Source: Alphaproteobacteria bacterium
GTDB lineage: Bacteria; Pseudomonadota; Alphaproteobacteria; Rs-D84
Assembly (NCBI GenBank): GCA_017535105.1
Contig: JAFXUI010000005.1
Span: 60,107-124,106, forward strand
Direction of reading: 5' to 3'
DNA: 64,000 bases
Position 1 is the first letter of the stretch. The number at the start of each line of letters is the position of its first letter. The notes below the pieces were generated by a model that was not told the DNA's origin, did no database searches, and worked only from the letters and a program-made list of their open reading frames with translations. A program made the position numbers and the translations under genes. This document shows, one piece after another, positions 1,787-6,863 of the stretch.

Positions 1787-2312
1787 TTTCGACATAACTT
1801 GGACGCAGATACATTGGAATTACCGGTTCGCCGGTGTTTGCTTTCAATTTTTGTTGAACAATTTGAACGCCCTGTTTTAAATCAAATGGTTTATGCCCAA
1901 CGGTACGTGGCCATTCCATTTGCTTGGTTTCAATTTCATCAATTGACATAGTGCAGGGCGCCAATGTGTTCGCGCCGACAAAGAAATCACCGTGTCCAGA
2001 TTCAATCGCAACAAACGCGTCCGGCGTTGCCGCCAAATACAATTCAAATGCGTTGATTGGAACAACCGGAATATTTAATCCCATCGCCAAACCCTTGGCA
2101 TATGCGATGCCGATACGAATGCCGGTAAAACTGCCGGGACCAACGACAACACCAATTGCGGTAATGTCGCCCCAAGTTGCGCCACATTCGGCAATGAATT
2201 TTTCCGTTTCGGTGGGCAAAGCCAATGATTGTTTGTCGGTTGTGACACGTTTGTATTGATTATCCAACACAAACTCCAAATCGGCCGAAGAAGAGTTTAT
2301 TATTAAAATCAT
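1767..2312 (-). CDS. tsaB: tRNA threonylcarbamoyladenosine biosynthesis protein TsaB
   Basis: An ASKHA-fold protein of 181 residues, partner of TsaD and TsaE in making t6A37 in tRNAs that read ANN codons; tsaD is also in this window. The family signatures MILIINSSSADLEFVL and VVVGPGSFTGIRIGIAYAKGLA are clear, and the C-terminus is a short tail (VIPMYLRPSYVE) as in TsaB. The start is the ATG that overlaps the upstream stop by four bases (ATGA), preferred over an ATG four codons earlier. It is shorter than many TsaB proteins (about 230 residues) but no core block is missing. It belongs to the lon-like to rimI operon. Confidence 0.9.
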   Translation of the reverse strand: MILIINSSSADLEFVLDNQYKRVTTDKQSLALPTETEKFIAECGATWGDITAIGVVVGPGSFTGIRIGIAYAKGLAMGLNIPVVPINAFELYLAATPDAFVAIESGHGDFFVGANTLAPCTMSIDEIETKQMEWPRTVGHKPFDLKQGVQIVQQKLKANTGEPVIPMYLRPSYVETNKQGK

Positions 2313-2695
2313 TTTTGTTTCCAATTATCGAACAGTTGATATAACATTTTGGACCCGATTTCACCAGGTCTTTCAATCGGGAAATAGCGTTTGTTCATAA
2401 CAACACAAGAATATACCGCCGGCATAATTACATTGTTGTCGGGCAAACTATCCACCTTTCTTTTTATCACAGAAATGTTATACAGGTTGGTGTGTACCAA
2501 CATACAATAATCAACAAAACCGCCATCGGCCACGTTGAACAATTTGCCTCTTTCTATGCGATTTGACCACGGGTTTTTGTGAAAGTCATCTTGGATAAAA
2601 TCATACAACAGAAGATCGTATTTGGTTTTCGCGTCTAATTTAGTTTCGTCAACCTTGGTTCCTGTTGCTGTTTTGTTATTCATTTTGTCGTTCAT
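2309..2695 (-). CDS. Unknown protein between the Lon-like ATPase and tsaB
   Basis: A predicted soluble protein of 128 residues with no recognised domain. It is translationally coupled on both sides: its ATG overlaps the lon-like stop (ATGA) and its stop overlaps the tsaB start (ATGA). It is not a displaced Lon protease domain, as no PKDGPSAG serine motif or catalytic lysine block is present. The last 40 residues (VYSCVVMNKRYF, then KMLYQLFDNWKQK) resemble the ends of the two small ORFs further down, suggesting one small family spread around tsaB. The N-terminus is Lys/Thr/Asp-rich and probably disordered. The function is unknown. Confidence 0.65.
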   Translation of the reverse strand: MNDKMNNKTATGTKVDETKLDAKTKYDLLLYDFIQDDFHKNPWSNRIERGKLFNVADGGFVDYCMLVHTNLYNISVIKRKVDSLPDNNVIMPAVYSCVVMNKRYFPIERPGEIGSKMLYQLFDNWKQK

Positions 2696-4449
2696 AACCG
2701 CACCCCAAATCCAATCTTTTTATTCAATCCAACCGAGTGGTGAACCGACAATAATTCATCAATTTTGGCAATGGTAAAGTCCGTTGGAGCGTCATTGCCG
2801 TCATTTTTCAGTAACGCACGGCGTAACATTGCGGTTATTTCACGTTGTAATTCACGGACGCCTTCTTCGCTTGTGTAATTTTGAATAATATGGCGAATAG
2901 CATCGTCCGAAATAGTGATGTTTTCAAATGCCCAGCCAGTGTCGTGTGCCGCACGCTTGATTAAATGCTCGCGTGCGATACGGACCTTGTCGTCCATGCT
3001 GTACCCTGGAATTTCAATAATTTCCATACGGTCTTTTAATGCACTTGAAATATTCAATGAATTTGCCGTTGCGATAAACAGAACGTTAGACAAGTCGAAA
3101 TCAACCTCTAAATAATGGTCTCGGAAAGATTTGTTTTGTTCGGGGTCCAAAATTTCCAATAATGCGGACTCTGGATCGCCACGCCAATCGCGTCCCATTT
3201 TATCAATTTCGTCCAGCACGATAACCGGATTATTTGCCTTGCAACGCTTTAATGCGTCCATAATACGACCCGTTTGTGCACCGATATATGTTTTGCGATG
3301 ACCGCGGAAATGCGCTTCGTCTGAAATACCACCCAGTGATATGCGTTGATATTTCCGGCCCAACGCCGCCGCAATAGATTTACCAAGCGATGTTTTACCA
3401 ACGCCCGGTGCACCAACGAAACACAAAATGCTGCCCTGGTTTTTGCCGGTCTTTTTCATAACGGCGATATGTTCCAAAATGCGTTCTTTGACCGCGTCCA
3501 TACCGGTATGTTCGCTGTCCAATACCGCACGTGCGGTTTTCAGGTCAATCGGTTGAATATCCATTTTATCCCATGGCATAGACAGCAATTCGTCCAAATA
3601 TGCTTTTAACAGGCCGCCTTCGTTCGACATTGGGGACAATGTGCGCATACGCCGCCATTCAGACATTGCTTTTTCTTTCGCTTCATCGGGCATTGCGGAT
3701 TTTTCAATACGGCCACGCATATTTTCGGCATCCATTTCTTCGTTGTCTTCGCCCATTTCATGCTGGATAGCGCGCATCTTTTCCTGTAAAATCGCTTCGC
3801 GGCGACCTTTTTCCATTTGCTGATTGATACGGCGGTTGATTGAATCTTCAATCTTCATCGTTTCCGCCATAAGATTCACTTGTTCCAGCAAAATGATAAG
3901 TTTTTCACGCCAAGTCGGTGCGCAAAGAATATTGATTGCAACATCTGTTTCCACGTCCAGCATTTGTACAACCGCATCAACAAATGCGGGCAGGGGGTAA
4001 TTTTGTACCACCGCGCGCAGTTTATCCATCTTGAATTTGCGCGATGCGGACATTGCTTGGATATTATTGGCAATTTTATCACGCAGGGCGATTGTTTGGT
4101 CAAATTCACTGTCGTCTAAAATCTCAATCTGGGAAACTTCGCCCATAAATATACCATTTTCGACGGTGATGTCGGAAATACGTACCGCGTTTGTTGTACG
4201 CACAATTGCGTGTAATGAACCGTCCGGCATACGTAAAACTTGGGCGATTTCGCCAATTGTACCGACATTATAAACATCTTCGGGACTTGCGGGGTACGAC
4301 CAACTGTGTTGCGCAGTCAGCACGATATTTTTACCGCTGTTTGCGGCCGCTTCGATACATGCCACCGAAAGTGGATTATCGATGTATACAGGCACAGTTA
4401 AACCCGGATTTACGACCAAATCGCGAAAAGGTAAAATGTATTCTTTCAT
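2692..4449 (-). CDS. lon: Lon-like AAA+ ATPase lacking the C-terminal protease domain
   Basis: 585 residues against about 780-820 for complete bacterial Lon. Visible in order are the LON substrate-binding domain (1-190, starting ILPFRDLVVNPGLTVPVYI), the helical linker with IEDSINRRINQQMEKGRRE (about 200-260), and a full AAA+ module. The module has Walker A GAPGVGKTSL (346-355), Walker B VIVLDEIDK (409-417), sensor 1 ATAN, arginine finger region KDRME, and sensor 2 GVREL. The frame then stops after a short stretch where Lon continues into its Ser-Lys protease domain. No protease domain is found in the next gene or another frame. ATP-driven unfolding could remain but proteolysis should not. 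It heads the tsaB-rimI operon. Confidence 0.85.
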   Translation of the reverse strand: MKEYILPFRDLVVNPGLTVPVYIDNPLSVACIEAAANSGKNIVLTAQHSWSYPASPEDVYNVGTIGEIAQVLRMPDGSLHAIVRTTNAVRISDITVENGIFMGEVSQIEILDDSEFDQTIALRDKIANNIQAMSASRKFKMDKLRAVVQNYPLPAFVDAVVQMLDVETDVAINILCAPTWREKLIILLEQVNLMAETMKIEDSINRRINQQMEKGRREAILQEKMRAIQHEMGEDNEEMDAENMRGRIEKSAMPDEAKEKAMSEWRRMRTLSPMSNEGGLLKAYLDELLSMPWDKMDIQPIDLKTARAVLDSEHTGMDAVKERILEHIAVMKKTGKNQGSILCFVGAPGVGKTSLGKSIAAALGRKYQRISLGGISDEAHFRGHRKTYIGAQTGRIMDALKRCKANNPVIVLDEIDKMGRDWRGDPESALLEILDPEQNKSFRDHYLEVDFDLSNVLFIATANSLNISSALKDRMEIIEIPGYSMDDKVRIAREHLIKRAAHDTGWAFENITISDDAIRHIIQNYTSEEGVRELQREITAMLRRALLKNDGNDAPTDFTIAKIDELLSVHHSVGLNKKIGFGVRL

Positions 4450-4795: not shown

Positions 4796-5119
4796 TTGTT
4801 CAAAGTGCTGGATTCTGGTGCCAGGTTCCAGCGGACCCCGCAAAAGCTTAAACGAACGCAACCGACAATTGCCAGCCACATTCAAACGCCATATTAGGCA
4901 GCCATTGCAAGGCGAACGTTGTCGTTCGCAGCGATTCTATCGCCATTCAGTTTTTATTTGGTCTTTAACGACACCACGTCGGATTCAACCAATTTGTCTT
5001 TCGTCATCTGTCGAAGCTATAACACCCCCGTATGTATTATTGGTGGAGGTGCCGGGTACCGCCCCCGGGTCCAAAATGATTATTGCACAACGGCTTCAGA
5101 ATCATCATCGCTTGCGCGA
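4796..5119 (-). ncRNA. ssrA: tmRNA, circularly permuted two-piece form (ssrA)
   Basis: tmRNA rescues stalled ribosomes and tags the nascent protein. Read on the minus strand, the acceptor piece comes first and ends in CACCTCCACCA at 5041. A short spacer (5030-5040) is removed, and the coding piece begins GGGGGTGTTATAGC at 5029. GGGGGTG pairs with CACCTCC to rebuild the acceptor stem. The tag frame (4894-4932) encodes AANDNVRLAMAA and a TAA stop, ending in the AA expected for ClpXP/ClpAP recognition. GATTCTG in the acceptor piece pairs with CAGAATC near the end of the coding piece, as in helix P2. This permuted layout is known from alphaproteobacteria. The outer ends are approximate. Confidence 0.93.
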
Positions 5120-5126
5120 CCCATAA

Positions 5127-6863
<1,737 letters not shown>

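Follow-up and report, generated by a model that had tools for sequence, protein, structure and literature searches.

Lon is an AAA+ protease that carries motor and peptidase in one chain; ClpP pairs with Clp-type motors. The window analyzed here, which is the whole stretch of 64,000 nt taken from contig JAFXUI010000005.1 (GCA_017535105.1; source genome G000, 869,733 bases in 6 contigs, 96% complete), encodes a Lon whose chain stops without the Ser-Lys protease domain. This raises the question of what a Lon motor does when its own peptidase has been lost. A preliminary description of the locus proposed either that the lineage keeps this Lon as an ATPase or that it hands its substrates to another protease, and it named the small open reading frame coupled to lon as the possible missing partner. 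The features that bear on this question are listed in Table 1.

Table 1. Features of the window considered in this study, with positions counted from its first nucleotide
Feature	Position	Strand	Basis or remark
Protease-less lon gene	2692..4449	-	ORF of 585 aa, ATG start, TGA stop
Lon substrate-binding N-domain (LON_substr_bdg), residues 5-191	3877..4437	-	PF02190, E 3.3e-24
AAA+ core, residues 342-478	3016..3426	-	PF00004, E 4.8e-22
AAA+ lid (Lon_lid), residues 505-548, includes Arg532	2806..2937	-	PF22667, E 2.4e-13
Predicted flexible arm, residues 571-578	2716..2739	-	Sequence variable, length nearly fixed; pLDDT < 50 for residues 571-585
IGF tripeptide, residues 579-581, candidate ClpP-docking motif	2707..2715	-	Conservation among truncated Lons
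C-terminal heptapeptide IGFGVRL, parallels IGFGANV of the ClpX of the same genome	2695..2715	-	Sequence
Coupled 128-aa ORF, candidate partner, rejected	2309..2695	-	No Pfam/NCBIfam match at E ≤ 0.1
tmRNA gene just upstream of lon	4803-5134	-	Tag AANDNVRLAMAA
ClpA-like two-ring ATPase, 740 aa	40342-42564	-	Under ClpA cut-off

The claim that this is a Lon ATPase without a proteolytic domain was borne out. The N-domain, the AAA+ core and the lid were all recognized, and Lon_C was absent from the 585-aa protein (Pfam, E ≤ 0.1). When 52 sequences were aligned, no variation was seen at the columns of the residues that we take to be Walker A, Walker B, sensor 1, the pore-loop Tyr and sensor 2 (Arg532). 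The chain ends at residue 585, as had been described. The equivalog model for Lon (TIGR00763) covered only positions 2 to 564 of its 795, and the score of 546.5 bits lay below the cut-off of 608.05 (NCBIfam). Set against LonA, the protein therefore has the N-domain and the AAA+ module with its lid and lacks the Ser-Lys protease domain and the TIGR00763 score. All 50 solved structures listed by Foldseek for the model of the truncated Lon were Lon proteases, which makes Lon the nearest fold, and no ClpX family matched the protein at E ≤ 0.1 (NCBIfam). Elsewhere in the source genome no match to PF05362 (Lon_C) was detected, with the same model positive in 13 of 14 control genomes, and no second lon was found, the sole other match being a Clp-type ATPase.

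In order to place the truncation in the lineage, 142 genomes of the order were surveyed, of which 124 belong to the family of the window (f1; four of these form genus g4) and 18 to five other families. A truncated Lon was matched in 118 of the 120 f1 genomes outside g4 (G132 and G137 had no Lon match), and Lon_C in 0 of the 120; the genomes with truncated Lon and no Lon_C include G027, which is a single contig and 99% complete. Lons of about 770 aa that include Lon_C occur in three of the four g4 genomes; G091 is the one with none. In the other families Lon_C was present at E ≤ 2e-44 in 17 of 18 genomes, with only a weak match in G020. Public records classed as Alphaproteobacteria incertae sedis carry the same truncated Lon, among them Candidatus Enterousia avistercoris, excrementavium and merdequi (best 80 of 341 loci). 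Across the class, a Lon frame of about 600 aa was present, among the matches listed in 289 genomes, only in the three genomes of the window's family; the other class members with a Lon frame shorter than 700 aa among these matches were G157 (638) and G324 (694).

A tree was built from 41 Lons, 30 of the 118 truncated ones and 11 with Lon_C, with the tails cut off beforehand and the root placed only by midpoint. All 30 truncated Lons were on one side of a branch with support of 100/99, the g4 Lons adjoined them, and one change suffices. Because sister species from nine genera share the truncated end, including the one-contig G027, a frameshift, an assembly error or a gap concealing the protease domain was rejected, as was recent decay beside a second intact lon, none having been found in the genome. 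The loss of the protease domain is a trait of the lineage, more than decay, shared by sister genomes, in agreement with the earlier suggestion that the lineage has retained Lon as an ATPase. Two copies of the truncated Lon were observed in one genome bin (L060 and L101 in G060) and on one contig, JAIDWS010000009.1 (L210 and L211); such copies could be paralogues, a duplication or mixed bins.

The ATGA overlap between lon and the next open reading frame is real. Of the 141 remaining genomes of the order, only G100 contained a relative of the 128-aa ORF, and a second relative turned up in a named record (L201). Since the ORF is this rare and the truncation is family-wide, the ORF was rejected as the partner of Lon, contrary to what had been proposed. 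On the other side of lon, a tmRNA gene within 1 kb upstream was seen in 6 of 20 relatives examined (L215, L220, L236, L245, L260 and L266).

The C-terminus of the truncated protein itself reads NKKIGFGVRL in the source genome, with IGF 4 residues from the end. The reading of C-termini covered 118 truncated Lons in 117 genomes. It excluded L042, whose frame continues past the end of its contig, the second G073 copy and fragments in G030 and G084, and two partial sequences were counted, L051 (a fragment at a contig end) and L045 (the C-terminal piece of the G135 lon, which is split over two frames). All 118 carried IGF, always after K or R and 3 to 9 residues before the stop (4 in 102 cases), and none of the 11 Lons with Lon_C did, one of which (L133) is cut by a contig end. 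IGF follows the sensor-2 Arg at a nearly fixed spacing (47 in 116 of the 118 Lons, 46 in the other 2). At F+4, 113 Lons have A, I, L, V or M, and in the other 5 this residue is non-hydrophobic or missing. Among the homologues listed by two database searches (best 120 each), IGF stood near the end in 236 of 238, again with a spacing of 47 (219 proteins) or 46 (17 proteins). The exceptions were P0186, which has IAF, and a protein that ends early (P0035, likely the same as L201). Named loci gave a similar picture, with IGF in 79 of 80 (best 80 of 341 loci); in L201 a stop at codon 533 precedes the tail, which is still readable beyond it.

Several observations bear on how this conservation is to be read. 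All 24 synonymous codings of IGF are used, which indicates that the peptide and not the DNA is under conservation, and in the ten columns preceding IGF the majority residue accounts for only 33 to 78% of sequences. As a yardstick for chance, IGF fell within the last 12 residues in 0 of 1063 other frames (stop-to-stop frames of at least 200 aa in the fetched loci, Lon frames removed; 972 distinct), and the looser pattern [ILV]G[FL] did so in 15. In the AlphaFold2 model (52 sequences, mean pLDDT 77) the last helix comprises residues 560 to 570, and the residues from 571 to the end can be read as disordered from their pLDDT (Table 1); the pTM of 0.46 makes the relative placement of the domains unsure.

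The tripeptide (L/I/V)-G-(F/L) is the element by which Clp ATPases bind hydrophobic ClpP pockets (PMC8745299). In E. coli ClpX, the IGF loop packs into clefts of ClpP through Ile268, Phe270 and Val274, and a change in the length of the loop weakens ClpX-ClpP binding (PMC7112951). The ClpX of the source genome carries RRGIGFGANVES; the ClpX loops read in f1 outside g4 have IGFGA, with IGFTA in G128, and those of g4 have LGFGA in 3 of 3. The docking tripeptide is present in the truncated Lon, where it lies on a C-terminal tail and not in a loop of the AAA+ module.

A clear ClpP was detected in 115 of the 120 f1 genomes outside g4 (partial in G100), and ClpX was above its cut-off in 114 of them. 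The source genome encodes its own clpP (L311), on a separate contig from lon; the product passes NF001368 (ClpP subfamily), falls below the TIGR00493 cut-off (270.3 versus 308.6 bits) and is close to solved ClpP chains. In G128, clpP follows the truncated lon on the same strand at a distance of about 260 bases, which is the one such close pair noticed. The position in the ClpP cleft that we take to be Tyr60 of E. coli was never Tyr in the rows compared from the family, nor was it Tyr in 5 of 9 outgroup rows, and in the rows compared (L157, L322-L340) the family's ClpP has a short, Lys-rich C-terminus. A second, weaker ClpP-like match (E about 1e-15 to 1e-20) is also present in about 15 f1 genomes, in frames of 215 to 301 aa.

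Clear clpP and clpX were both missing in five f1 genomes, G019, G021, G092, G123 and G130. The neighboring gene pgk is cut by a contig end in G123 and is missing along with the region in G021, so the absence of clpP fits assembly gaps in these two. In G092 the pgk match spans only 27 residues, and in G130 pgk is present without clpP beside it. G019 (98% complete; locus L320 on contig C1) shares its gene order with G027 from pgk to a point some 1.5 kb short of clpP, and its last 1.9 kb to the contig end differ, which could reflect rearrangement, misassembly or loss of clpPX. The absence of clpP in G019, G092 and G130 has no such explanation.

Other peptidases and motors of these genomes were also considered. 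HslV was rejected as the peptidase of Lon, as it was found in 0 of the 142 genomes with a model that was positive in 9, and above its cut-off in 5, of the 14 control genomes. None of the 142 genomes passed the ClpA cut-off, a result that says little since only 3 of the 14 controls passed it. A ClpA-model match of about 686 aa in the source genome (L310) turned out to be ClpB-like and to lack the N-domain, and it is also under the ClpB cut-off; this protein (685 aa, on contig C3 of G000) spans ClpB model positions 147 to 852, whereas the open frame seen in G033 and G056 is 860 aa long. The 740-aa ClpA-like ATPase of the window was the best single ClpA-model match among the 142 genomes. It has IGY at the position corresponding to the IGL of ClpA, and IGFG in its N-terminal part.

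At the level of sequence, the loss of the domain, the single tree branch of the sampled truncated Lons, the near-fixed position of IGF and the presence of ClpP and ClpX in most of the genomes are established. The reading that we prefer, with a probability of roughly 0.8, is that the truncated Lon docks on ClpP via its C-terminal IGF arm and feeds it unfolded substrates. The AAA+ part would form a hexamer like that of other Lons, with six C-terminal arms hanging from the face that once held the protease ring. In Lon the protease ring directly follows the lid, so that the arm would extend from the very face on which ClpP would have to sit. The Ile, the Phe and the hydrophobic F+4 residue of the tail would then enter the ClpP clefts in the manner of the three E. 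coli ClpX residues named above, and substrates picked by the Lon N-domain would be threaded into ClpP. ClpX and Lon would have one ClpP, and its clefts, in common. Docking is preferred because it explains together the loss of the protease, the conserved motor and a ClpX-like plug of nearly fixed reach.

The wider proposal, which we hold to be probable to almost the same degree, is that of a new natural AAA+ protease, "LonClpP," in which the Lon of a single ancestor of these bacteria dropped its protease, the stump became an IGF plug, and two different motors, ClpX and Lon, share one ClpP by means of one peptide. IGF aligns about where the lost protease domain began, at [VI]G[VITF] in the protease-bearing Lons, and the docking tag may have arisen from what was left of that domain, although the alignment has a gap there. 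As a whole, the interpretation in the preliminary description was partly supported: for the suggestion that substrates are handed to another protease, ClpP can now be put forward as the candidate peptidase and the IGF arm as the candidate device, neither of which had been named.

Several points count against docking. The IGF amounts to three residues on a C-terminal tail, versus a loop of the AAA+ module in ClpX and ClpA. Five genomes are without a clear clpP, the F+4 residue is non-hydrophobic or missing in 5 of 118 Lons, and proximity of lon and clpP was noticed in G128 only. The IAF of P0186, the early stop in L201, the split lon of G135 and a cleft position that is never Tyr point in the same direction. 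Furthermore, a lasso peptide with IGF activated ClpP apparently not via the hydrophobic pockets (PMC8745299), and the ClpB derivative BAP degrades casein with ClpP also without ATP (PMC5540906).

The truncated Lon might instead act as a stand-alone chaperone or disaggregase that unfolds and releases its substrates without a peptidase, IGF serving oligomer packing or some other use. AAA+ motifs kept in the absence of the protease domain would suit such a role, as would the five genomes in which a truncated Lon occurs with no clear clpP, and ClpB, which has no ClpP motif, shows that motors of this kind exist (PMC5540906). Nevertheless, this alternative seems unlikely, as it accounts neither for the near-fixed spacing nor for the identity with the docking motif of ClpX, and the model predicts disorder, not packing, for the tail.

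It is highly improbable, in our view, that IGF survives as a structural leftover from the first strand of the former protease domain, kept to seal the lid and having no partner. Its alignment near the [VI]G[VITF] start of Lon_C, with VGF at that place in one protease-bearing Lon (L139), is what such a remnant would leave; yet IGF is lacking in the 11 Lons with Lon_C, in which mostly acidic residues and not K or R precede this site, and the tail residues are predicted to be disordered and are parted from the last helix by a variable stretch. Least probable of all is a mainly regulatory role, in which the docked tail would, for instance, compete with ClpX for ClpP instead of feeding it. The same docking heptapeptide pattern in the Lon and the ClpX of one genome would be consistent with competition, but conservation extends to the entire Lon motor with its pore loop and to the substrate domain, which a mere competitor could do without.

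The proposed docking of Lon on ClpP can be compared with several known systems. The truncated Lon resembles the LonA protease (endopeptidase La, TIGR00763) in its N-domain, AAA+ core, lid and motifs, with homology over residues 5 to 549, and differs from it in having a C-terminal IGF arm in place of the Ser-Lys protease domain. It shares with the ClpX-ClpP pair the IGF tripeptide (often IGFG), the hydrophobic F+4 residue and the presence of ClpP in most of the same genomes, whereas IGF is at the C-terminus and not in an internal loop, and the motor is of the Lon type with a Lon N-domain. The C-terminal tails of HslU insert into HslV, and this pair is alike in docking by a C-terminal tail; HslV is the peptidase that was not found in the 142 genomes. 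The closest engineered parallel is that of BAP and HAP, in which the IGL/IGF loop (ClpA P-loop) grafted onto ClpB or Hsp104, respectively, allowed work with ClpP (PMC5540906). There, too, an AAA+ motor not using ClpP was made compatible with it by an added IGL/IGF element (PMC5540906). Both BAP and HAP were made in the laboratory by grafting a loop, whereas the truncated Lon is natural and has the element at its C-terminal end.

Among the titles listed in searches of the literature, no report was found of a ClpP-docking or a naturally protease-less Lon. The parts are known, and the pairing of Lon with ClpP is new as far as that literature shows.

If the truncated Lon does dock on ClpP, evolution did to Lon what engineering did to ClpB, and AAA+ motors and peptidases would be re-pairable in nature through a short peptide. 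With its terminal IGF carried by an arm of fixed length, the protein would provide a natural test of the minimal needs for ClpP docking, and it would be a Lon motor whose unfolding is separable from its own peptidase. It would also change the annotation of proteolysis in a group of animal gut bacteria that is large and for the most part uncultured.
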